Both the position numbers and the translations under genes were made by a program. From Halieaceae bacterium (GTDB lineage: Bacteria; Pseudomonadota; Gammaproteobacteria; Pseudomonadales; Halieaceae), in NCBI GenBank assembly GCA_029247075.1, contig JAQWLX010000112.1, positions 1 to 55,689 of the forward strand: 55,689 nucleotides of DNA. Reading direction: 5' to 3'. Positions 33,164 through 53,846 of this stretch are shown here, in pieces. A model generated the notes under the pieces. The model worked only from the letters and a program-made list of their open reading frames with translations. It made no database searches and was not told where the DNA came from. How positions within the stretch are numbered: the first letter of the stretch is position 1; each line of letters begins with the position of its first letter.

Positions 33164-34573
33164 TTGAGGAGTTTTGAGTGTCGCCTAAGCCCGCTCGTCC
33201 CAGCAAATCCAAGTGAGATAAACTTGAAGGAGGCTGCTATCAAGCAACCTGATACAGTGCATTTTTTTGAAAGTAGATCTGATCTCGATTCACATACGTC
33301 TAGTGACAGTTTGGTGAGTTCCGCTTCAGCATCTGGCAGCCGGGCTCTAAGAATTGCGCTTCTTGGGTATCGCAGTGACCCTTATAGTGGAGGTCAAGGC
33401 GTATACATACATTATCTTAGTAAAGCTCTTACTGATGCCGGGCATCGCGTTGATGTTATCTCTGGACCACCTTACCCTCGGCTTGATCCTAGGATAAAGC
33501 TAATAAAACTTCCAAGTTTGGACTTATTCCAGAATGGACTTGACTCTATTAGACCAAGAAACTTACTTTCGATAACCGACCTGATTGAATGGATCAGTAA
33601 GCTCACCGGCGGATTTGCCGAACCGTATTCATTTGGCCGTCGTGCTTTGAAGTATTTACTTAAACATAGAGATGAATATGATTTGATTCATGATAATCAA
33701 TCTCTAAGTTTTGGAATGCTAAAAATCCAAAACCTTGGATTTCCGTTGGTCACGACGATTCATCATCCAATCACTAGTGATTTGAGAATAGCTTTATCAG
33801 ACGCGCCGACCTGGCAGGCTAGACTATTAATTTGGCGATGGCATTCTTTCCTTAAGATGCAAGTCCGAGTAGCCAGGCGTTTGCGACATGTTGTTACAGT
33901 GTCTCAATGTTCACAGAAAGATATTGCATCAGACTTTGCTCTATCCTTAGACAGAATCAGTGTCATTTATAACGGGATAGATACTAATGTATTTAAGCCT
34001 ATTCCAGAAATAAAGAGACACTCAAATCTGGTGATGGCCACAGCATCTGCGGATGCTCCCCTGAAAGGCGTTAGATATCTTCTTGAAGCTTTCGCAATTT
34101 TACTTCAAAAGTATCCGAATCTTGAATTGGTCTTGGTTGGAAAGCTGCATCAGGGAGGAAATACCGAGCAACTTATTAAAGACTTGAATTTGATTTCTAA
34201 CATATCTTTTGTATCTGGCATCAGCACAACAGCGCTCGTTAAAATGTATGCGCAAGCCACACTGGTAATTGTTCCTTCGGTCTATGAAGGATTTGGATTG
34301 CCAGCGGGTGAGGCAATGTCTTGCGGAGTGGCAGTGGTTTCCACCAACGGAGGTGCCTTGCCGGAAATTGTTGGTGACAGTGCGATGATCGTCCCGACAC
34401 GTGATTCTAAGGCATTGGCAAATGCCGCTTCAAAATTGCTAGAGAAGCCTAGCTTGCGCGAGGTTATGGGAAAAGAGGCTCGTGAACACATTAGGCAACG
34501 TTTTAGCTGGGAAGCTTGTGCGAAAAATATGACTAAATATTATGAGAGTATTGTAGCCAATGCAGACGATTGA
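33164..34573 (+). CDS. GT4-family (GT-B fold) glycosyltransferase
   Basis: A glycosyltransferase of about 400 recognisable residues. The Rossmann opening RIALLGYRSDPYSGGQGVYIHYLSKAL starts near residue 63, and the nucleotide-sugar-binding E-x7-E is E375 to E383 in YEGFGLPAGEAMSCG, followed by STNGGALPEIV. STHHPIT-like TTIHHPITSD is also seen. The first about 60 residues are low in conserved features and the TTG start at 33164 is doubtful: a GAGGAG just inside it is better placed for a GTG at 33178 in another frame, which closes after 12 codons. The gene overlaps the methyltransferase by 14 nt. The sugar donor is unknown; dTDP-rhamnose is plausible from context. Confidence 0.88.
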   Translation: MRSFECRLSPLVPANPSEINLKEAAIKQPDTVHFFESRSDLDSHTSSDSLVSSASASGSRALRIALLGYRSDPYSGGQGVYIHYLSKALTDAGHRVDVISGPPYPRLDPRIKLIKLPSLDLFQNGLDSIRPRNLLSITDLIEWISKLTGGFAEPYSFGRRALKYLLKHRDEYDLIHDNQSLSFGMLKIQNLGFPLVTTIHHPITSDLRIALSDAPTWQARLLIWRWHSFLKMQVRVARRLRHVVTVSQCSQKDIASDFALSLDRISVIYNGIDTNVFKPIPEIKRHSNLVMATASADAPLKGVRYLLEAFAILLQKYPNLELVLVGKLHQGGNTEQLIKDLNLISNISFVSGISTTALVKMYAQATLVIVPSVYEGFGLPAGEAMSCGVAVVSTNGGALPEIVGDSAMIVPTRDSKALANAASKLLEKPSLREVMGKEAREHIRQRFSWEACAKNMTKYYESIVANADD

Positions 34574-35270
34574 TTTTAGTTACCTGCCTGTTCGTACTGG
34601 GGATCTTGTCTTGGACCTTGGTTGTGGCGAAGGTAGACACGTTATTGCGGCTGCTTGCCACTTAGATATTAATGTATTCGGCATCGATTTAAATAAGGAA
34701 GATTTGTTATCTGCTAGAGAAAAAGAAAAAGAAGTCACAATAAGAGATGGAAGTGTAGCCGAATTTATCGTGGGCGACGCATTACGCTTGCCATTTGAAG
34801 ACCATTGCTTTGATGCTGTTATATGCAGCGAGGTACTCGAACATATTAGAGATTACCGATCTGTATTGAAAGAAATCGGGCGTGTTTTGCGAAATGGTGG
34901 TTTTTTTTGCGCCAGCGTTCCTAGGCATTGGCCTGAAAAAATTTGTTGGGCACTAAGTCGCGAATATCATGAAGTACCGGGCGGACATATCCATATTTTT
35001 AGGACGGGGCAACTGCGAAAGGAGATAGAAAGCCTTGGCATGCAGTATTATCGTCGACACTGGGCTCATGCATTACATGTCCCATTTTGGTGGCTGAAAT
35101 GCATTTTCTGGAAATCCCAAAACACTAATCTACTTGTTTCCTTATACCATCGAATGTTGGTTTGGGACTTAATGCGACAACCGTTAATAACTCGTCTTTT
35201 GGAGTCTCTGCTAAATCCTATTATGGGTAAGAGTGTGGTTTTATACTTTCGCAAGGACCCTTCAATATGA
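34560..35270 (+). CDS. Class I SAM-dependent methyltransferase
   Basis: A 236-residue Methyltransf_11-type enzyme. Motif I is LDLGCGEGRH (about 18-27), the acidic SAM-ribose residue is in GIDLNKEDL, and motif IV/post-I includes GDALRLPFEDHCFDAVICSEVLEHI. The C-terminal third is aromatic and basic with no clear family feature, and could contact a glycolipid acceptor. It begins inside the glycosyltransferase gene (14-nt overlap) and ends in an ATGA overlap with the toroid gene, so the three are translationally coupled. The acceptor is unknown. Confidence 0.9.
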   Translation: MQTIDFSYLPVRTGDLVLDLGCGEGRHVIAAACHLDINVFGIDLNKEDLLSAREKEKEVTIRDGSVAEFIVGDALRLPFEDHCFDAVICSEVLEHIRDYRSVLKEIGRVLRNGGFFCASVPRHWPEKICWALSREYHEVPGGHIHIFRTGQLRKEIESLGMQYYRRHWAHALHVPFWWLKCIFWKSQNTNLLVSLYHRMLVWDLMRQPLITRLLESLLNPIMGKSVVLYFRKDPSI

Positions 35271-36340
35271 GTGGTCTTTACTTAAGTCGTGGCCTGTTCC
35301 CAAAGGATTTTCTTCGACCAACTGTTGAGTTTGTACTAGAGGTTCAAAAGGAATCAGGTGAAATACCTTGGTTTTCTGGAGGCCATAGCGACCCTTGGGA
35401 TCATGTCGAGGCTGCTATGGGGTTGTCGATAGGGGGAGAGTGGAACGCTGCAGAACGAGCTTACAGATGGTTGGCAGAAAATCAATTAACAGATGGAAGT
35501 TGGTGGTCGGGCTATAGGGGCGCCGAGATAGATAATGGGGAGCGCAGGGAGAGTAATTTCGTAGCTTATTTTGCAACTGGAATATGGCACCAGTATTTAG
35601 TTACCGAGGATAGAAGGTTTTTAATAGAAATGTGGCCGGTGGTTGAATTAGCGATAAGCTTTGTATTGTCTTTGCAGTCTGAGTATGGAGATGTTGACTG
35701 GTCAGTTGATTCTACTGGTACTGCGGCAGGTGATTCATTGGTTACTGGTTGCGCATCTATTTATAAAAGCCTCGAATGTGCTTTTAATATTGCCTCAACT
35801 TTAGGCCATAATCGGGTTGACTGGTTTGAAGCGAGACAGAAATTAGGTGAGGCATTGCGGGGAATGCCTCAGCGTTTCGATAGAACCTGGGAAAGCAAAG
35901 CTCGTTACTCGATGGATTGGTTTTACCCAGTGTTGACAGGAGTCGTGCAAAGCCTAGATGCGCGAAAACGTATAGATTCGCGTTGGAACGAATTTGTAGA
36001 AGAAGGATTAGGCTGTAGGTGTGTTGTTGATCAGCCTTGGGTTACTGTCGCGGAATCTTGTGAAATGGTGCTAGCACTACTTGCCATCAATGACAGAGTT
36101 ACTGCGACAGAGGTCTTTAGTTGGTTGTCTCAATGGCGAGAAGATAGTGGAGCTTATTGGACAGGTTATCAACTAGTGGAGGACATCCTTTGGCCGGATG
36201 AGCAACCTACTTGGACGGCTGGAGCTATCTTGCTGGCCGCAGATGCTTTAACCGAGCATACTGGTGCTGCTAATCTTTTTACATCAGTAAATCTGATCTC
36301 CGATGCTAAAGCAAAAGTTTCTAGTTTGGGTATAGAATAA
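35267..36340 (+). CDS. Alpha/alpha-toroid protein (prenyltransferase/squalene-oxidase-repeat-like)
   Basis: A 357-residue soluble protein without signal peptide. It shows QW-like motifs: Q27-x3-G-x3-W35, Q73-x3-G-x-W79 and Q137-x3-G-x3-W145. There is also an internal repeat: residues about 47-83 ending GSWWSGY match about 262-301 ending GAYWTGY, as expected for helical repeats in an alpha/alpha barrel. It lacks the DxDD motif of squalene-hopene cyclase and any recognised protein-prenyltransferase zinc site, so the cyclase or prenyltransferase label should not be taken literally; an (alpha/alpha)6 glycan-active enzyme is an alternative. The ATGA start overlap with the methyltransferase ties it to the glycosyltransferase-methyltransferase pair. 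Function is unknown. Confidence 0.72.
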   Translation: MSGLYLSRGLFPKDFLRPTVEFVLEVQKESGEIPWFSGGHSDPWDHVEAAMGLSIGGEWNAAERAYRWLAENQLTDGSWWSGYRGAEIDNGERRESNFVAYFATGIWHQYLVTEDRRFLIEMWPVVELAISFVLSLQSEYGDVDWSVDSTGTAAGDSLVTGCASIYKSLECAFNIASTLGHNRVDWFEARQKLGEALRGMPQRFDRTWESKARYSMDWFYPVLTGVVQSLDARKRIDSRWNEFVEEGLGCRCVVDQPWVTVAESCEMVLALLAINDRVTATEVFSWLSQWREDSGAYWTGYQLVEDILWPDEQPTWTAGAILLAADALTEHTGAANLFTSVNLISDAKAKVSSLGIE

Positions 36341-36387: not shown

Positions 36388-37167
36388 TTATCTAACCCGT
36401 TTTAAGTATCCATCAGGCGCTACAGTGATTAGTAATTTATGCTGAATAGTTCTATCTATCTCGAACTCAGAATGACCTTCGACATACTTATGCACAGCTG
36501 TTTTCGGGCTGTTGCCAACCCCCCAAGGTCGGTCGGGGAACCCGTCGGAGGGCATGTCTTCTATAACAGTATCCATGACGATACAGTAACTCCCTAGGCT
36601 AGTGAGTGGCGCATAGGCTTGTAGCTCTGCTAGCACATGCTCATGGGTATGATTACTATCCAAACACACTATAATATTCTCATAGCCACTGGCAATATCC
36701 GTGACTCGATTGACAATTTCTGGATCGATACTGGATCCTTCAATCATATCTATTCTTGATGCCATAGGGTGCTCCTCTATAGCTCTTCGATTATGGGCTC
36801 GTACATCTATATCGATGCCCAGGACTTTTCGAGATGACTGTTTGGGGTTTATCGTTTCGTTTTTATTAATAGCATCACACATGTCTAGAAGGGCAAGCAT
36901 TGAAGCACTAAAAGTTAGTGAACCACCATGCGCGATTCCTGTCTCTATAATTAGATCAGGTTGAACTTCCCATATTATTTCTTGAATAGCCCATTCATCA
37001 TTTGGAAATTGGATTGCGGGTCTGCCCATCCAAGAAAAATTATATGACCACTTATGTTTCCCAGCGCTACGAATCCAAGATGTCGAGAGTTTTTGAATTT
37101 CCTCATCTTGACCAAGTCCTTCAATATTCGCAGCTACTTCAGTTCTAAAATTATCTATTTCATTCAT
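36388..37167 (-). CDS. CmcI/rhamnosyl O-methyltransferase family protein
   Basis: A SAM-dependent methyltransferase of the family that groups cephalosporin hydroxylase CmcI with mycobacterial rhamnosyl O-methyltransferases. In 259 residues it has SWMGRPAIQFPNDEW (46-59), the SAM loop ETGIAHGGS (75-83), GIDIDVRAHNR (117-127), and the metal-site segment LDSNHTHEH (169-177), then YCIVMDT. It overlaps the WbqC gene by 8 nt and is the last gene of a five-gene minus-strand run. Because a dTDP-rhamnose pathway lies 4-8 kb away, methylation of a rhamnose residue is a reasonable hypothesis, though other sugars are possible. Confidence 0.88.
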   Translation of the reverse strand: MNEIDNFRTEVAANIEGLGQDEEIQKLSTSWIRSAGKHKWSYNFSWMGRPAIQFPNDEWAIQEIIWEVQPDLIIETGIAHGGSLTFSASMLALLDMCDAINKNETINPKQSSRKVLGIDIDVRAHNRRAIEEHPMASRIDMIEGSSIDPEIVNRVTDIASGYENIIVCLDSNHTHEHVLAELQAYAPLTSLGSYCIVMDTVIEDMPSDGFPDRPWGVGNSPKTAVHKYVEGHSEFEIDRTIQHKLLITVAPDGYLKRVR

Positions 37168-37879
37168 TGGCTAAAAAATCCTTCCAGGAAACAGTTCCTG
37201 AGCATATAAAAGATCTCCCTTCAGGACCTAGGTTCGCGATCAGATCAAGTATAGTGACGAACGGAGTGAAGTTTCCATGTAATTGTTTGTAAGGTTTTTT
37301 GAGATAATCAATGTAAGAGATTTTTATTCCTTCCTGCTCGAACGACGTATGATCAAGGTAATTTTTAGCGCCATGTCCTGTAATATATTCGGTCCCACCA
37401 ACTTCACGAATTATGTCGAGCACGCGTTTTGAGCCTGAGCTTGTTTTGTTGAACTTAGAAGAGTGTAAGAATTTGCACTGAAGGTTTAGTTGATAATAGT
37501 CACAAACGCTTGCAATACTTGCTTCGCTAATTTCCGAAATAGTTTTGTAATCATTACTTAAAACCGCATTAACGATATTCATCATGTCATTAAAATAAGG
37601 GCTTTGGTGATAATTTTCTGTAAGCAATCTACGATGTTTTTCTCGCCAGTCAGACTGGTTGTTTACTAAGACCTGATTAATGAGCTGGCCGAACTTAAAT
37701 TTCCCTATTGGTATTGTAAGCCATTTCGATCCAGTAACCGTTTTTATCTGCACGCGATTTGAAAAACTACCTTTTGAAAATTGTACGTCTGAGTAATGGA
37801 CGTAGGCATCAGCAAGTGCTATCTGTTCGAACATCCCTACCCACGGGAAATACATAGGTTGAGAAATCACTATTTTCAC
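37160..37879 (-). CDS. WbqC-like family protein
   Basis: A 239-residue member of the WbqC family, common in O-antigen and other polysaccharide loci; a role in attaching acyl or amino-acid groups to sugars has been proposed but is not settled. The family opening ISQPMYFPWVGMFEQIALAD, the SDVQFSKGSFSNRVQIK stretch, WLTIPIG and a C-terminal YLDHTSF-EQEGI region are present. The start is GTG at 37879 with an AGAG upstream. WbqC genes often accompany an aminotransferase of the DegT class, and none is seen here. Confidence 0.88.
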   Translation of the reverse strand: MKIVISQPMYFPWVGMFEQIALADAYVHYSDVQFSKGSFSNRVQIKTVTGSKWLTIPIGKFKFGQLINQVLVNNQSDWREKHRRLLTENYHQSPYFNDMMNIVNAVLSNDYKTISEISEASIASVCDYYQLNLQCKFLHSSKFNKTSSGSKRVLDIIREVGGTEYITGHGAKNYLDHTSFEQEGIKISYIDYLKKPYKQLHGNFTPFVTILDLIANLGPEGRSFICSGTVSWKDFLANE

Positions 37880-37894
37880 GAGTTGCTCTCTTAC

Positions 37895-38416
37895 TTAGCC
37901 GCTAGCTAAGAGGTGCTCCATTAGTATTACATCTTGATAACCAGTAGAGTGCTTGTAATGAGCCTTTAAGACCCCCACCTCTTTGAAACCTTGTTTTTTA
38001 TAAAGCTTTATTGCAGGAGTATTATTTCCAACAACATACAAAAGAAGTTTTCTAAGTCCAGTGACTTGAATGAGATAGTTCTCTAAGAGATTGAGCACTT
38101 CCGAGCCAAGTCCTTTTGCTTGCTGCGAAGGTATTAGACAGATTCCGAGATATCCCCAACCACTTCTTTTATTAACGTCGGTTACTTGAACAAATCCTAT
38201 GGGTTGGTTTTTATCAGTGCTAGCGATGACAAAGAAAAGAGTATCTGGATGTTGAGTTTTTTCCGACAACCATTGACGCGTTCGCTCTATCGAGTTTGGT
38301 CTTGCCTCGCTCATTAGTGTTTCTTGAAGCCGGACATCGTTGCGAATCGTTTTCATGGTGGCAACATCTTCTTCTTGCCAAGCCCTAAGTTCCACCTTGC
38401 CACCTTTAAGCATCAT
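37895..38416 (-). CDS. GNAT family N-acetyltransferase (RimJ/RimL-like)
   Basis: A 173-residue acetyltransferase. The N-terminal VELRAWQEEDVATM is the RimJ/RimL-type opening, GYLGICLIPSQQAKGLGSEVL is the acetyl-CoA-binding loop (motif A), and NTPAIKLYKKQGFKEVG is motif B. In this setting the acceptor may be an amino sugar or a sugar intermediate rather than a ribosomal protein. It is 15 nt from the WbqC gene and 9 nt from the upstream methyltransferase, clearly in one operon. Confidence 0.9.
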   Translation of the reverse strand: MMLKGGKVELRAWQEEDVATMKTIRNDVRLQETLMSEARPNSIERTRQWLSEKTQHPDTLFFVIASTDKNQPIGFVQVTDVNKRSGWGYLGICLIPSQQAKGLGSEVLNLLENYLIQVTGLRKLLLYVVGNNTPAIKLYKKQGFKEVGVLKAHYKHSTGYQDVILMEHLLASG

Positions 38417-38425
38417 CGTTGCCTC

Positions 38426-39574
38426 TTAAAGAAAAAATGTTTTGAGACCTTGTAAAGTTTCTAATGGCTTGATGATATCTCGCGCATGATCGGGATTAAG
38501 ACCGACGAAAAGGGACTGCACATCCGAACTAAAATTTTTTGGGTGAATTATTGGTTTTTCGTTCATCTTGCGACCTTCTAAATGAGGGTTCTGATCTATA
38601 TAGTACTTTATCCTGCCCGGCTCGCTTAATGCGGCTGTGATGAAGGCCGCATAAAAGCCTGCGCCGTAAATGGCGATCTCTGAACCGGCATCTAGAGAGG
38701 ACTCGAATTGTCGTGTTCGTTCCAGGGCCGAGGACCAGAACTTACTCATGTTAACAAGCTCTGATTGGATGTCCTCTTCTTCTAATCTAGTAGTATAATC
38801 TAAATCGCTATTTGTCGTTGCGGTAATGACGAGAGCAGAGGCATGAATTTCGCTGTCGATATCAATTTGAGTAAATCCAGCATCAGAAAACATTTTTAAA
38901 AGGGAGTCTTTTGTGAAGTGATTTAAGTGATCTACTACCACCAAGTCAGCTATATTAGTTAATATATTTGGAACGACGCAATAGAAAGTACCTCCTTTAT
39001 TGAGCAGGCGAGATAGATCTCTCAAGGCCTTACTAGGTTTCTCGATGTGCTCGAAAGCAAAAAAGGAAGTAATCACATCAAAAGAAGAATCCCAGGCAGA
39101 GGGAGGCGTATAGGTAGCCCACTTGTCTTTTGTAAGGAAAGACGACCAAAATGGAACATATCTTTCACTTACGTCGAATAGATTTAGATCGAGGTCTGGT
39201 CGTTTTTTTAATAAATTTCGAAAAGTTGAACTTTTTGCACAGCCGTAGTCTAGAAGTCGGCTCCCTTTTTTCAATGTAAGTTTTTCTAACAATACCTCCA
39301 CTTGATGGTCTGTTCGAAATAGGGGTTTACCTTCGATAACTTTATAAATTTGATCATCTTCTTCGCTTTCAATGAGAATATCATAGTCAGTATCATAATA
39401 GGCAGACGTATCGAAGGTCGGGTCGGTCTGTATATGGCGGCAGCTAGAACAATATCGCACTATAGTCGATACTTCGACAATACGATTTAAAGAAGTTAGT
39501 GAGCCACTTTGACCAGAGTTATAAAACGACTCAGAAATTAGATTTGCGCAGATATTGCAGGTCGGGTTGGTCAT
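38426..39574 (-). CDS. Zinc-binding SAM-dependent methyltransferase (NDP-sugar C-methyltransferase architecture)
   Basis: A 382-residue three-part protein. The N-terminal zinc-binding domain uses C6-x2-C9 and C42-x2-C45 (Methyltransf_13 style). The SAM-binding domain has LLDYGCAKS (107-115) and FFAFEHIEKP. The C-terminal domain carries EIAIYGAGFYAAFITAAL, the Methyltransf_14-like nucleotide-fold segment. This architecture is shared by sugar 3-C-methyltransferases such as TylCIII, but many relatives in polysaccharide loci act on unknown substrates. It lies between the GNAT and PhyH genes with gaps of 9 and 3 nt. Confidence 0.87.
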   Translation of the reverse strand: MTNPTCNICANLISESFYNSGQSGSLTSLNRIVEVSTIVRYCSSCRHIQTDPTFDTSAYYDTDYDILIESEEDDQIYKVIEGKPLFRTDHQVEVLLEKLTLKKGSRLLDYGCAKSSTFRNLLKKRPDLDLNLFDVSERYVPFWSSFLTKDKWATYTPPSAWDSSFDVITSFFAFEHIEKPSKALRDLSRLLNKGGTFYCVVPNILTNIADLVVVDHLNHFTKDSLLKMFSDAGFTQIDIDSEIHASALVITATTNSDLDYTTRLEEEDIQSELVNMSKFWSSALERTRQFESSLDAGSEIAIYGAGFYAAFITAALSEPGRIKYYIDQNPHLEGRKMNEKPIIHPKNFSSDVQSLFVGLNPDHARDIIKPLETLQGLKTFFL

Positions 39575-39577
39575 AAT

Positions 39578-40420
39578 TTATGGGTCTCTTACAATATCTG
39601 GATGAAAAGCACGGAAATCTGAACCTGCAGCGAAGGAACCCTTCCAGCCGTGACGGATGCCTGTCGATTCTCGAAAATTAAATAGTCGGCTCTGCATAGA
39701 CCAGCGTGACCGATTACAGGATATATGACCAGAACAATGGAGTGTTAGAAAGTCCATTATGAGCAAATCCCCGGGAAAGGTTTCAGGAGCAGTTTTCTCA
39801 TAACGATCAATTAAATTACTTTTATCTGATAAGACTAGACTATAAGCACCAGTTTTTTCTGGATGATCTGGATCTCGAGTTTTTATTGGAGCTATCCCAT
39901 CAAGATGTGATCCGACGCAAATTTTAATTGGTCCCATCTCCTCTGAGACAGGCACAAGCGGACTCCAAAAAATAATTCCATCCAAACTCCTTAATTGGGC
40001 TGGATATTCCTGGTGCCAATCTGCTCGAAATTTTTCTTCGTTTGGGTTATCAATTCGGATTCCAAATCCGCCTCCAGCTACACCGCTGACGTCAGTGCTC
40101 CTTATTTGACTGAATATAGATTCATGCCGAGAGGAGCTTACCAAACGAATGAATGCCGGTATTTGTTTAACGGCATCATATACGATGCCGCCAAGCTTTC
40201 GATCGTGGGCTATTAACTTAGAAAATCCATGATCAAAATCAGAGGGATTTTCGGGATGCCCTAGCTTCAAGCCATTACTACTGCCAACAAGTTTTATTAG
40301 CTCACCAATTTTAGTTTGTATCGGCAAAATATCTTTTTCTATATCATAAAAATTTTTGATTAGTAAAAATCCTTTTTTTTGAAAGACATCTACCTGATTT
40401 TGATCGAGAATTTCTAACAT
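39578..40420 (-). CDS. Phytanoyl-CoA dioxygenase (PhyH) family Fe(II)/2-oxoglutarate oxygenase
   Basis: A non-heme iron oxygenase of 280 residues that likely hydroxylates a small molecule or sugar-linked group. The double-stranded beta-helix landmarks are ADWHQEYPAQL, SLDGIIFWSPLVPV, MGPIKICVGSH and a C-terminal LTLHCSGHISCNRS. The usual iron-binding H-x-D appears as H136-Q-E138, with distal histidine H228 and a later Arg (R245) placed for 2-oxoglutarate. Glu in place of Asp is unusual but keeps a carboxylate. It is the first gene of the five-gene modification operon and has a long inverted-repeat structure 32 nt upstream of its start. Confidence 0.85.
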   Translation of the reverse strand: MLEILDQNQVDVFQKKGFLLIKNFYDIEKDILPIQTKIGELIKLVGSSNGLKLGHPENPSDFDHGFSKLIAHDRKLGGIVYDAVKQIPAFIRLVSSSRHESIFSQIRSTDVSGVAGGGFGIRIDNPNEEKFRADWHQEYPAQLRSLDGIIFWSPLVPVSEEMGPIKICVGSHLDGIAPIKTRDPDHPEKTGAYSLVLSDKSNLIDRYEKTAPETFPGDLLIMDFLTLHCSGHISCNRSRWSMQSRLFNFRESTGIRHGWKGSFAAGSDFRAFHPDIVRDP

Positions 40421-40765: not shown

Positions 40766-41449
40766 CTATAACCTCTGCAGAACTCGCAAGCTATCCACTT
40801 CCATATGTGGTAAAAAAAGACCTGAATTAATAGCGAGATCATGAATTGCTCTTGGTGCTTGCCCTCCTTTTTCTGGAGCTTCAAATACGTCATGGATGGC
40901 GAGAAATCCACCCCTTAATAAAAATTTAGACCAACTACGATAGTCGGTCAATGCTGCCTGCAGGCTGTGACCACCGTCTATAAAGACCATTGCCAAAGGA
41001 ATTTGCCAAACATTGGCAACAACAGTAGATTTTGCAACGATTGGTACAATATTGTCTTCGACCCCCGCGCTAGAAATATTTTTTCTAAATTCTGCAAATG
41101 AATCTATTTCGCCGGTTTGTGGATTTACCAGATCGGTGTCGTGAAAGGAGTCGCCTATTTGATGTTCCTCTGATCCTTTGTGGTGATCTATCGTAAACAC
41201 AATCTTGTTGTTTTCACGGCAACCTAAGGCGAGATAAATCGTGGATTTTCCGCAGTAGCTGCCTATCTCTAAAATTGGGCCTAATTTTGATGCCATTTCT
41301 GCGGTCTTATACAGGGTTTCGCCCTCATCAGCCGATAGAAATCCCTTCATAGCCGATAGGTTTTCGGGAAACTTAGCCATTTTTTGCTTCCACCTCGCAC
41401 GCAATGCTACCTTGAAGTTATCCTTTTTGGATTCTATAGGCAAGACCAT
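40766..41449 (-). CDS. Class I SAM-dependent methyltransferase (Methyltransf_24/CmcI-like fold)
   Basis: A 227-residue methyltransferase of the catechol O-methyltransferase-like group. Motif I is ILEIGSYCGKST (59-70); the acidic motif is FTIDHHKGSEEH around D88; FIDGGHSLQAALTDYRSW holds the metal-binding Asp and His typical of Methyltransf_24; and FLAIHDVFE follows. The start is ATG at 41449 rather than the TTG one codon before. It is divergent from waaA and not closely joined to the PhyH operon (345-nt gap). A glycan or lipid acceptor is likely from context, but unproven. Confidence 0.88.
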   Translation of the reverse strand: MVLPIESKKDNFKVALRARWKQKMAKFPENLSAMKGFLSADEGETLYKTAEMASKLGPILEIGSYCGKSTIYLALGCRENNKIVFTIDHHKGSEEHQIGDSFHDTDLVNPQTGEIDSFAEFRKNISSAGVEDNIVPIVAKSTVVANVWQIPLAMVFIDGGHSLQAALTDYRSWSKFLLRGGFLAIHDVFEAPEKGGQAPRAIHDLAINSGLFLPHMEVDSLRVLQRL

Positions 41450-41522
41450 CAAGCACGAGGTGCTAGCTTGCTATCTTTTGTGGAGGTATCCTAAATATAA
41501 ATCCATTTGAGGATCTCGATAG

Positions 41523-50571: not shown

Positions 50572-51678
50572 GTGATAAAACACACGACTAGTGACTATCG
50601 AAATATCTTTTTGGAGAACAAACCTTTGATTGATGTTCGTTCTCCAGGAGAATTTCTGAAAGGCGCATTTTCAACGGCATGCAATATCCCTCTATTAAAT
50701 GATGAAGAGCGTGCGGCGGTTGGCCTATGCTATAAGCGTCATGGGCAGGAAGCGGCGATTGATTTAGGGCACAAACTGGTTACAGGTACTTTGCGCGAAG
50801 AGCGATTGGCAGCTTGGGTAAGTTTGGCGAAACATCACCCCGCAGGCTGCCTCTACTGTTTTAGGGGAGGGCTAAGATCTTCTATAGTACAAAAGTGGCT
50901 CGATAATGAAGGAGTTAGCTATCCTCTCGTGAATGGCGGTTATAAAGCTATGCGCCGTTTTCTTATTGAGGCCTTGGAGGAATCACTGTCGGATATTGAC
51001 CTGGTGCTGGTAAGCGGTCGAACAGGAGTCGGAAAAACTCGGGTTATCGACAAGCTTGATCGTGGGATCGATCTAGAGAAACTTGCAAAACATCGCGGTT
51101 CTACCTTCGGGAAGCTGCTGGAAAAGCAGCCATCTCAAATTAGTTTTGAAAACGAGTTAAGTATCTCTATCTTGAAAGCTTGTGCTCGATCGAAAGCACC
51201 TATTTTCATCGAGGATGAGGGAAAACTGATTGGTCGAATTAATCTGCCTAATGAGCTTAGATCAAGCATGGAAAAAGCCCCAATAGTTTTTGTTCGAGCG
51301 TCATTATCAGATCGTATACAAACTGTATTGCAGGACTACGTTTTAGACCTTGGAGAAAAGTATAGCCACTTTTATGGAGCCTCTGGTAAGTCGCAGCATC
51401 GCGATCGCTTAATAGAAGATTTGTCACGTATTCGCCGACGCCTTGGTGGGGAAAAGCACGAGATGCTTACCAAAATGATACATGATGCCTTTGAAATTCA
51501 TTGGTCCAAAGGTTGTGATTCGGGCCACCGAGAGTGGATTGGTGAATTGTTGCGTACTTACTATGACCCAATGTACGACTACCAGCTATCCCAGCGTAAA
51601 GGGAGGGTTTTGATGAAAGGGACGCAATCAGAGGTAATAGCGTGGGCCAAGGATTATAAGTCTTGCGACCACCGTTAA
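50572..51678 (+). CDS. mnmH: tRNA 2-selenouridine synthase
   Basis: MnmH (SelU/YbbB) replaces the sulfur of 2-thiouridine with selenium at the wobble position of certain tRNAs, using selenophosphate. The N-terminal rhodanese domain has LIDVRSPGEFLKGAF and the active-site cysteine C96 in YCFRGGLRS (C97 in E. coli). The C-terminal half has a P-loop GRTGVGKT (149-156), for the geranylation/selenation cycle. The 368-residue length is standard. The start is GTG. The 3' end overlaps the next gene, which makes selenophosphate, so the pair is a self-contained tRNA selenation module. Confidence 0.95.
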   Translation: MIKHTTSDYRNIFLENKPLIDVRSPGEFLKGAFSTACNIPLLNDEERAAVGLCYKRHGQEAAIDLGHKLVTGTLREERLAAWVSLAKHHPAGCLYCFRGGLRSSIVQKWLDNEGVSYPLVNGGYKAMRRFLIEALEESLSDIDLVLVSGRTGVGKTRVIDKLDRGIDLEKLAKHRGSTFGKLLEKQPSQISFENELSISILKACARSKAPIFIEDEGKLIGRINLPNELRSSMEKAPIVFVRASLSDRIQTVLQDYVLDLGEKYSHFYGASGKSQHRDRLIEDLSRIRRRLGGEKHEMLTKMIHDAFEIHWSKGCDSGHREWIGELLRTYYDPMYDYQLSQRKGRVLMKGTQSEVIAWAKDYKSCDHR

Positions 51679-53846
51679 CTGATAGATCAAAAGATTTGGT
51701 CCTTGTGGGTGGAGGGCATAGTCATGTTATCGTCATAAGGAACTTTGGCATGCATCCGTCAGATGATCATCAAGTCACGTTGATTTCGGTCGGAGCGGAT
51801 TCAGCGTACTCTGGCATGTTGCCTGGTTTGATAGCTGGTCATTATGATTACGGAGAAACCCATATAGATTTAACGCGCCTTTGCCAATGGGCGGGAGTTC
51901 GGTTTATTAAGGCCGAAGTCATAGGTCTGGATTCAGAAAGAAAACAGCTTAGTCTAGCGGGTCGAGCAAAAGTATCTTATGACATAGTGAGTTTTGATGT
52001 AGGTGCTGAACCAGATCTAATTTCTGTAGATGGGGCTTCAGACTTTGCGATTCCAGTTAAGCCGATAACTAAAATTTGGCAAAGATGGACTGAGTTACAA
52101 GAGATGTCGTTAAATCTCGAGAGAATTGCCGTAGTTGGTGGAGGCGCGGGAAGTGTTGAGTTAATTCTGGCAATGGTGGAGTCTCTTTCTGTAGAGGATA
52201 TCCGTTTTGACTTATATTGTGGCAGCTCGCGACTGCTACCAGAATACCCTAGACCGCTTGGTGCATCAGTGTTGAAGACCTTGAGGCGCAAAGGGGTAAC
52301 TGTTCACTTAGATGCCTGGGTTGACAGAGTTAGGGAAGGTAGTCTGGTTCTAAAGTCGGGGGAGCGCCATGACTTCGACGAAGTTTTTTGGTGCACTGCG
52401 GCGGCGCCAACACCTTGGTTAGCTAATTCTGGTTTATCTTTGGACTCTGATGGATTCCTCGCTACAAAAGATACATTGCAATCTTTAGACGATGAACATG
52501 TTTTCGCAGTTGGAGATTGTGCCTCGCAAATTTATCAACCCAGACCTAAGGCAGGGGTTTTTGCCGTGCGTCAAGGTCCAGTTTTGGCGAGGAATCTCCG
52601 TGCCAAGATTATTGGAAAATCACTGCAGTCCTATAAACCACAGAAGCGGTTTTTGTCGATCCTATCCTTGGGAAGTAAGACAGCTGTAGCCAATTGGGGC
52701 AGACTGTTTCTATCTGCTAAATGGGTATGGTCTTGGAAAAATTTAATAGATAAAAGATTCATGAGAAGCTTCGAGAAACTTCCAGATCCAAAAATGAGTT
52801 TTAAACTGAACTTTAGAATGAACTATGCGGAAGAAATATTGCAACTTCATTGTGGTGGTTGCGGAGCAAAAGTTTCCTCGAAAGCACTTTCCCAAGTCCT
52901 CACCAAACTGTCAGCTGAACACCCGGATAACTGTATGGTTTCCAGCGATGATGCCCGAGAGATAACTTTCCCCAGTCACAAAGTCTGGCAGAGTATAGAC
53001 GGTTTGCGTGGTCTAGTAGGAGATCTATGGCAAATGGGGCAGCTAGCAGCTAACCATGCTCTAAGTGATTTATTTGCCTGTGGTCTACAACCTCATTCAG
53101 CTCAGGCACTGATAGTATTACCCTTTGCTACCCCCACTCTACAGGCCCGAGAATTAACTCAGATTTTGGAAGGTGCGTTGACAGTTTTTAAAGAAGCTAA
53201 TTGTATCTTGATGGGAGGGCATAGCATGCAGGGACCTGAGTTACAAATAGCGTTTGCCGTTAATGGGTATTTGCCAGGATCAAGCGGTCATTCACTATCT
53301 AAGAAAGGTCTGCAAGTAGGCGATAAACTTTTGATAACACGTCCTTTAGGCAGCGGTATTTTGTTTGCTGCCCACATGCAATTGTTAGCGGATGGTTCGC
53401 ATTTGGAGAAGGCCTTAGCGATTATGGCTCAAAGCAACTTCATAGCCGCTGAAGTTTGTATTCAGCACGGAGTAAAATGTGTCACCGACGTGACTGGATT
53501 TGGCTTGGCTGTGCACCTCATAGAAATGCTTGAGTCGTCTCAGGGAGCTACTGCAAAGGTTCTGGATTTGCCAAGCTTCGAAGGCGTTCTGTCTTACATG
53601 GCAAAGGATGTGAGGAGCACTGGTCATCAATCAAATAAAGATGCAGCTGCAGGATATTTGAGTGAAATGGATCAAGTGGGCTTAGAGGCTGAATTGTTAT
53701 TTGACCCTCAAACATGTGGCGGTTTGCTAATGGGCGTGGCGCCCGAAGAATTAGACAGCTTATCGAGAGCTTTGACTTCGTCAGGAGTTCAACCGTATGT
53801 CATCGGTGAAGTTACCGATAACGCAGGTTTGATAGAATTATGTTAA
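51663..53846 (+). CDS. selD: FAD/NAD(P) oxidoreductase-selenide, water dikinase fusion
   Basis: A two-part 727-residue protein. Residues about 8-375 are an NDH-2-like flavoprotein with VLVGGGHSHV, AVVGGGAGSVEL and HVFAVGDCASQ. Residues about 393-727 are SelD, which makes selenophosphate from ATP and selenide: LHCGGCGAKVSS holds the catalytic Cys (C400) and Lys (K403), equivalents of E. coli C17 and K20, followed by SSDDAREI, GGHSMQGPE and TDVTGFGLAVHL. The start is TTG at 51663, inside mnmH, with AAGGA 8 nt upstream, so translation is coupled. The residue at the catalytic site is Cys, not selenocysteine. Such fusions are known; the flavoprotein may supply or reduce selenium. Confidence 0.94.
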   Translation: MRPPLTDRSKDLVLVGGGHSHVIVIRNFGMHPSDDHQVTLISVGADSAYSGMLPGLIAGHYDYGETHIDLTRLCQWAGVRFIKAEVIGLDSERKQLSLAGRAKVSYDIVSFDVGAEPDLISVDGASDFAIPVKPITKIWQRWTELQEMSLNLERIAVVGGGAGSVELILAMVESLSVEDIRFDLYCGSSRLLPEYPRPLGASVLKTLRRKGVTVHLDAWVDRVREGSLVLKSGERHDFDEVFWCTAAAPTPWLANSGLSLDSDGFLATKDTLQSLDDEHVFAVGDCASQIYQPRPKAGVFAVRQGPVLARNLRAKIIGKSLQSYKPQKRFLSILSLGSKTAVANWGRLFLSAKWVWSWKNLIDKRFMRSFEKLPDPKMSFKLNFRMNYAEEILQLHCGGCGAKVSSKALSQVLTKLSAEHPDNCMVSSDDAREITFPSHKVWQSIDGLRGLVGDLWQMGQLAANHALSDLFACGLQPHSAQALIVLPFATPTLQARELTQILEGALTVFKEANCILMGGHSMQGPELQIAFAVNGYLPGSSGHSLSKKGLQVGDKLLITRPLGSGILFAAHMQLLADGSHLEKALAIMAQSNFIAAEVCIQHGVKCVTDVTGFGLAVHLIEMLESSQGATAKVLDLPSFEGVLSYMAKDVRSTGHQSNKDAAAGYLSEMDQVGLEAELLFDPQTCGGLLMGVAPEELDSLSRALTSSGVQPYVIGEVTDNAGLIELC

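Follow-up and report, generated by a model that had tools for sequence, protein, structure and literature searches.

We analyzed a 55,689-nucleotide (nt) stretch of DNA from a Halieaceae bacterium (contig C110 of a 2.14-Mb genome, 71% complete), referred to hereafter as the window, and found four genes that most probably form a Gram-negative version of the methylmannose polysaccharide (MMP) cluster, which would make and recycle a methylmannose polysaccharide. In mycobacteria, this cluster consists of manT, pmeT3, mmpH and meT1, and this order is found in M. hassiacum (MHAS_04402-04405) and M. avium (MAV_2755-2758) (PMC9883506); the MSMEG numbers printed in the same paper would swap mmpH and meT1. 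In the window, homologues of the first three genes overlap one another, and the meT1 homologue lies 4.4 kb downstream on the opposite strand (Table 1). The initial annotation, made from the sequence alone, saw in the overlapping glycosyltransferase, methyltransferase and alpha/alpha-toroid genes the best candidate for an undescribed pathway, with nothing to suggest a known end product. It missed the fourth gene, and the pathway is not undescribed: the toroid protein and glycosyltransferase lead to MmpH and ManT (7qsg) of the known mycobacterial pathway.

The four gene products and their mycobacterial relatives

Glycan cleavage was among the functions first guessed for the toroid protein, and a search of solved structures points the same way: its closest solved relative is the endo-mannosidase MmpH of Mycobacterium hassiacum (7qsj), matched over residues 11-343 with an E-value of 2.1e-91, 148 of the 321 aligned positions (46%) being identical. 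No Pfam or NCBIfam family scored above its cut-off, GH95 and oligosaccharide amylase being the sole matches, both below it. The predicted model of the protein (mean predicted local distance difference test (pLDDT) score 93.2, from an alignment of 35 sequences) again points to 7qsj, with a Foldseek E-value of 1.0e-34 (runner-up entry 6.1e-09) and, upon superposition, a Z of 51.9 and a root-mean-square deviation of 1.6 over 334 residues (runner-up row, Z 35.8). The nearest structure is an (alpha/alpha)6 barrel. A match to a characterized enzyme unrelated to glycans had been named beforehand as grounds for refutation; the enzyme matched, MmpH, does act on a glycan.

The motifs described for the toroid protein are all present in its sequence. 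Q-x3-G-x3-W occurs at residue 27 and again at residue 137, the Q/G/W set of each copy is retained in 109/109 aligned sequences, and GSWWSGY and GAYWTGY are both found. The DxDD motif of hopene cyclases is absent, as had been stated, and occurs in one of 108 homologues. At the positions important in MmpH (numbering of PMC9883506), D47, W49, M215, Y219, E262 and E265 are invariant in all 108 homologues, N101 and W315 are each kept in 107, T163 in 104 and F102 in 99; the equivalents of the catalytic acid and base (D47 and E262) are present in the window’s protein. The column of D50 holds D in 86 homologues, the window’s included, and N in 22; the N form is found in 20 of the 21 rows from the class of genome G309 (very probably Alphaproteobacteria, because of its number of families), in L087 and in Nonomuraea, the rows concerned being L084, L087, L089 and L096-L114. 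D47 has been marked as the putative catalytic acid, although mutation could not separate it from D50 (PMC9883506, 2023). Since D47 is invariant and D50 is replaced in 22 of the 108, our alignment favors D47 as the acid. As a side remark, the legend of Fig. 2 in PMC9883506 names the inactive variant E256A, and its text and methods Glu262; in 7qsj numbering, E262 fits the conserved glutamate.

The first gene of the trio encodes a protein with a clear GT4 domain by domain search. Its best solved match is 7qsg (E 3.5e-98; 173 of 404 positions identical, 43%), an entry titled D-inositol 3-phosphate glycosyltransferase. We regard it as ManT on three grounds: PMC9883506 presents the two structures jointly, the MmpH and ManT entries are listed adjacently, and K240, H142, E313 and E321 of that paper fit 7qsg at one constant offset. 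The window’s protein keeps the equivalents of all four residues. Of 102 ManT rows, two have internal stops and were left out; in the other 100, K240, E313 and E321 never vary, and H142 is H in all 75 rows in which the column is filled, the other 25 being cut off there. Residues 1-58 of the window’s protein do not align to 7qsg, so the true start may lie further in than 33164; other in-frame start codons are at 33224, 33257, 33311 and 33314.

For the second gene, a class I methyltransferase domain is clear (Methyltransf_11, 2e-24), and a close solved relative is lacking: the best matches by sequence and by fold are 3bus (RebM) and 6uv6 (AtmM), the latter entry being named D-glucose O-methyltransferase, and the model (pLDDT 94.2) lies nearest to RebM and AtmM with a TM-score of about 0.65. 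It is a putative pMeT3 homologue in that it occupies the gene-order position of M. hassiacum MHAS_04403 and has a sugar-methyltransferase fold; it shares 45.5% identity with the Nonomuraea protein encoded between ManT and MmpH. The fourth gene product matches a single PDB sequence at E ≤ 0.01, namely 6g7d (E 7.2e-54; 91 of 193 positions identical, 47%), which we take to be MeT1, the entry itself being titled only ‘methyltransferase domain protein’. No NCBIfam family matched it at E ≤ 0.001.

Conservation and co-inheritance of the four genes

We examined 108 MmpH loci, the window and Nonomuraea included, after eight duplicate or unrelated loci had been dropped (some duplicate genomes may remain). 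pMeT3 is present in all 108; 102 have a co-oriented manT in the expected order, and 94 have a convergent meT1. Five of the six loci without manT start within about 220 nt of pMeT3. Whole-genome searches found MeT1 elsewhere in all 16 genomes without it in the locus, these being the 14 loci lacking MeT1 (13 searched by locus, L091 as G444) together with G990 and G998. The check proposed at the outset, adjacency of the trio in other genomes, is thus borne out in many of them. The overlaps of 14 and 4 nt, which the open reading frame (ORF) coordinates confirm to lie all in one direction, also recur: -14 nt between manT and pmeT3 in 72/102 loci and -4 nt between pmeT3 and mmpH in 85/108, figures that lean towards the window’s layout because the start codon nearest the window’s start position was chosen. 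Recurring in so many loci, the overlaps are not due to chance.

The set extends well beyond the window’s relatives. The 20 loci taken from G309’s class all contain pMeT3, MmpH and a convergent MeT1, and manT is seen in every one but L100, which is truncated. Five more loci come from the window’s own class; of these, L156 and L159 carry MeT1 at another place in their genomes, and L157 is without a visible manT. In the actinobacterium Nonomuraea, the one record returned by a search of plasmids for actinobacterial clusters, ManT, pMeT3 and MmpH follow in order, with a convergent MeT1 past one extra ORF. The four families are thus found together across two proteobacterial classes and actinobacteria. 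A recent transfer from mycobacteria was considered and is unsupported: MmpH and MeT1 rows group largely by class, with the two actinobacterial rows together. The trees are quick ones, poorly supported at depth, with a few long branches and no actinobacterial rows beyond those two.

At E ≤ 1e-10, and with the window’s own genome included in each count, MmpH was found in 129 of 140 genomes of the family (75 of the 78 better ones), 83/244 of the order, 7/274 of the class and 5/398 of the phylum, and in 22 of 240 genomes of G309’s class. Small genomes retain the set: L158 (1.2 Mb) and L112 and L114 (both 1.4 Mb) keep all four genes at a locus G+C of 33-36%, and in G983 (L160; 0.9 Mb) the four homologues are more distant, at 29-36% identity. 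MeT1 was found in 84 of the 244 genomes of the order, namely all 83 with MmpH plus G710, in which 13 bases separate it from the end of a contig; the other 160 have neither gene. Linkage alone fails to explain this co-occurrence because the two genes lie apart in some genomes; in G679, for example, the distance is about 47 kb, and in G556 each is on a contig of its own. The 244 genomes are related to one another and should not be read as 244 independent trials.

Table 1. Coordinates of the four genes and of the two overlaps in the window
Feature	Position	Strand	Product length and start	Assignment or basis
manT homologue	33164-34573	+	469 aa, TTG start	GT4 (GT-B) glycosyltransferase, proposed alpha-(1->4)-mannosyltransferase for chain extension
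putative pmeT3 homologue	34560-35270	+	236 aa	class I S-adenosylmethionine (SAM) methyltransferase, proposed 3-O-methyltransferase of mannose units
mmpH homologue	35267-36340	+	357 aa	(alpha/alpha)6-barrel protein, proposed endo-mannosidase turning mature chains into primers
meT1 homologue	40766-41452	-		proposed 1-O-methyltransferase capping the reducing end; convergent to the trio, beyond a five-gene insert
manT/pmeT3 overlap, 14 nt	34560-34573	+		ORF coordinates, recurrence in other loci
pmeT3/mmpH overlap, 4 nt	35267-35270	+		ORF coordinates, recurrence in other loci

The distance between mmpH and meT1 in the window is made up by five genes on the - strand (36388-40420), encoding a rhamnosyl O-methyltransferase/CmcI protein (PF04989, 6.1e-95), WbqC, GNAT, a methyltransferase and PhyH; this insert, beside the rml genes, looks like surface-polysaccharide decoration. 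It is not in the sister contig L002, from an uncultured Halieaceae bacterium whose toroid protein is 95% identical to the window’s (the closest named relative), and there meT1 follows immediately after mmpH, in convergent orientation. Elsewhere in the window (50572-53846), a tRNA 2-selenouridine synthase-like ORF is followed by one resembling an oxidoreductase/selenophosphate synthase fusion, judging the translation by eye.

Proposed pathway and competing explanations

Homology, the conservation of catalytic residues, the order of the genes and their co-inheritance are the grounds on which we infer each step of the pathway in this bacterium. The product would be a cytoplasmic, soluble alpha-(1->4)-mannan with 3-O-methylated units and a 1-O-methyl cap at the reducing end. 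The MmpH homologue would cut mature chains internally to give primers, the ManT homologue would add mannose to the pieces, the pMeT3 homologue would methylate mannose units at O-3, and the MeT1 homologue would methylate the free reducing ends at O-1. In mycobacteria, internal cleavage by MmpH, mannose extension by ManT and methylation of free reducing ends by MeT1 have been shown, and 3-O-methylation by pMeT3 is inferred even there, this enzyme being uncharacterized (PMC9883506). Locus conservation and the homology to MmpH and ManT support the earlier proposal that a conserved, coupled glycosyltransferase-methyltransferase-toroid set acts on one glycan. Of the 61 family genomes searched for a gene of the GDP-mannose pathway (TIGR01479), 60 have one that scores above cut-off, and the window’s genome is among them. 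A family genome that is 83% complete (G412) has neither MmpH nor the GDP-mannose gene above cut-off, a double absence that may reflect joint loss or missing sequence.

Several observations weigh against this assignment. The identity of the glycosyltransferase to ManT is only moderate (43%), and the window and 71 of 76 gammaproteobacterial rows have T in place of D293, a proposed guanine contact (PMC9883506); the two actinobacterial rows keep D, as do 11 of the 20 rows from G309’s class. The donor could therefore differ; ManT may have shifted in donor specificity, or the D293 contact may be dispensable. N replaces D50 of MmpH in 22/108 homologues, though mutation of D50 cripples the M. hassiacum enzyme (PMC9883506). 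In L031, pMeT3 is partial and manT absent despite 1.5 kb of upstream sequence, and L157 shows no manT in the 0.7 kb available. The domain PF08354 of fatty acid synthase I (FAS I), the proposed regulatory target of MMP, was found in none of the 61 family genomes; in the control set of 14 genomes, Corynebacterium glutamicum was the sole match. Finally, a Gram-negative 3-O-methylmannose homopolymer, that of Oligotropha, is known to be a lipopolysaccharide (LPS) O-antigen (PMC9883506).

Some of these points would suit a related but different intracellular methylated glycan, in which the logic of cutting, extending, methylating and capping is kept and the sugar, linkage or methyl position is another. 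The loss of D293 in gammaproteobacterial rows, the room for change left by identities of 43-47%, and a pMeT3 that is uncharacterized even in mycobacteria all speak for it; the retained sugar-contacting and catalytic residues of MmpH and ManT, the near-universal GDP-mannose gene in the family and the company kept by the four families across such distant groups make it unlikely. Decoration of a surface polysaccharide or LPS, beside genes for dTDP-rhamnose and for the transferase of 3-deoxy-D-manno-octulosonic acid (KDO), appears considerably less likely still. In its favor, the window and many Halieaceae loci have rml genes on the upstream side and waaA on the downstream side, the insert is O-antigen-like, and the Oligotropha O-antigen is an alpha-(1->2) 3-O-methylmannose chain; however, these neighbors drop out beyond Halieaceae. 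In a survey of neighbor families at 56 loci, the rml families each occur in one, and waaA in four, of the 45 that lie outside a list of 11 Halieaceae loci, and no export gene recurs with the four. Moreover, as reasoned from PMC9883506, MeT1 methylates a free reducing end, which a lipid-linked chain would lack.

Two further explanations carry next to no weight with us. If the genes served to break down methylated mannans imported from algae, this would fit the marine hosts and the one hydrolase among the enzymes, but three of the four enzymes are of biosynthetic types, the MmpH homologue has no hydrophobic N-terminal segment, and no uptake gene family recurs with the cluster. In favor of a toroid protein that works on a lipid, as prenyltransferase or terpene cyclase, are its QW-like motifs and the presence of drimenyl diphosphate synthase at rank 7 of the fold list; yet the lead of MmpH exceeds 25 orders of magnitude in E and amounts to 16 Z units, DxDD is missing and the MmpH acid and base are invariant, and we reject this function. 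An MMP cluster thus remains the reading that we prefer.

A proposed acyl-chain role, a candidate fifth gene and known systems

In vitro, MMP and the mycobacterial methylglucose lipopolysaccharide (MGLP) bind acyl chains and regulate FAS I, the latter proposal having little in vivo support, and fatty acids are unchanged in MGLP-defective mutants (PMC2674218). In M. smegmatis, an mmpH mutant is devoid of MMP and shows slower growth at 15 °C (PMC9883506). For the Gram-negative polysaccharide, we propose as a likely role, independent of FAS I, the binding and buffering of acyl chains of medium and long length, perhaps at low temperature.

The neighbor survey also points to a candidate fifth component. 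Outside the 11 listed Halieaceae loci, the commonest further family is a hexapeptide acyltransferase, found in 8 of the 45 loci, directly beside meT1 in seven of them and about 2 kb from manT in L124 (G309’s class); in that class, the neighbor families f15 and f16 occur in six loci each. The hexapeptide family (type sequence L144:9789-10505) resembles maltose and galactoside O-acetyltransferases, without reaching an NCBIfam cut-off among the matches listed. At E ≤ 1e-30, it is present in 79 of the 244 genomes of the order, all of them MeT1-positive and 78 MmpH-positive; that is, in 79/84 genomes with MeT1 against 0/160 without the cluster. It was not found in G568, G608, G686, G692 and G731, which may be misses given that scoring covered only 11 candidates in many genomes. 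The window’s genome has it on another contig (G000:C109:6361-7071, also L163:6361-7071; 39% identity), and away from the cluster it has constant neighbors in many genomes, by eye genes for serine acetyltransferase, hemE and glutamate synthase. Shared ancestry could lie behind part of this co-occurrence. Because Streptomyces griseus produces acetylated MMP (AMMP) (PMC9883506, Fig. 1 legend), we predict, by analogy, that the enzyme would acetylate the chain. We would go further only tentatively, to a possibility that we think somewhat less probable than its opposite: that Gram-negative MMP is O-acetylated by this fifth, often unlinked enzyme and acts as a FAS I-independent cytoplasmic acyl-chain buffer for type II fatty acid synthesis or acyl-CoA use. 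If true, the tie to FAS I in mycobacteria would represent one local instance of a broader function.

The pathway logic and the enzymes are already known from mycobacteria, and what is new is the group of organisms. Descriptions of MMP come from mycobacteria and from a number of other actinobacteria, and the pathway studied there appears, from the genomes compared, to be common in certain Gram-negative bacteria. The literature searched holds no report of the cluster outside Actinobacteria (a 2019 MeT1 paper, where a mention is possible, was not covered), and nothing joining methylmannose polysaccharide with proteobacteria, 3-O-methylmannose with gammaproteobacteria, or methylmannose with marine bacteria and a gene cluster; among papers that name methylmannose polysaccharide, no title suggests such a finding. 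The main text of PMC9883506 contains neither ‘proteobacter’ nor ‘Gram-negative’, though it mentions the Oligotropha methylmannose O-antigen. Because the set is near-universal in the window’s family, occurs in a second proteobacterial class and is kept in small genomes, the pathway would be a wider one whose role need not involve FAS I. Marine strains in culture collections carry the cluster, among them Haliea salexigens DSM 19537 (L067) and Zhongshania antarctica DSM 25701 (L071), so product and function are testable there; the comparison, in turn, favors one acid in MmpH and names a candidate O-acetyltransferase.

Set against known systems, the locus shares with the mycobacterial MMP cluster its genes (pmeT3 putatively, by position and fold), their order, key residues and folds. 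It differs in its Gram-negative host, in the undetected FAS I, in the replaced D293 of ManT, in a meT1 that is convergent and, in the window, behind an insert, and in the co-occurring O-acetyltransferase family. AMMP of S. griseus, likened here by product description and not by genes, is a possible match if that O-acetyltransferase acts on the chain. The MGLP pathway, whose genes are GpgS and Rv3030-Rv3032, involves another sugar and other genes than the MMP cluster. MGLP resembles MMP in being a polymethylated polysaccharide of the cytoplasm and in its binding of acyl chains in vitro (PMC2674218). Glycosidases of the GH15, GH125 and GH63 types have the (alpha/alpha)6 fold in common with the toroid protein (see also PMC9883506), with about 10-14% identity to it among the matches listed, and MmpH is far closer.

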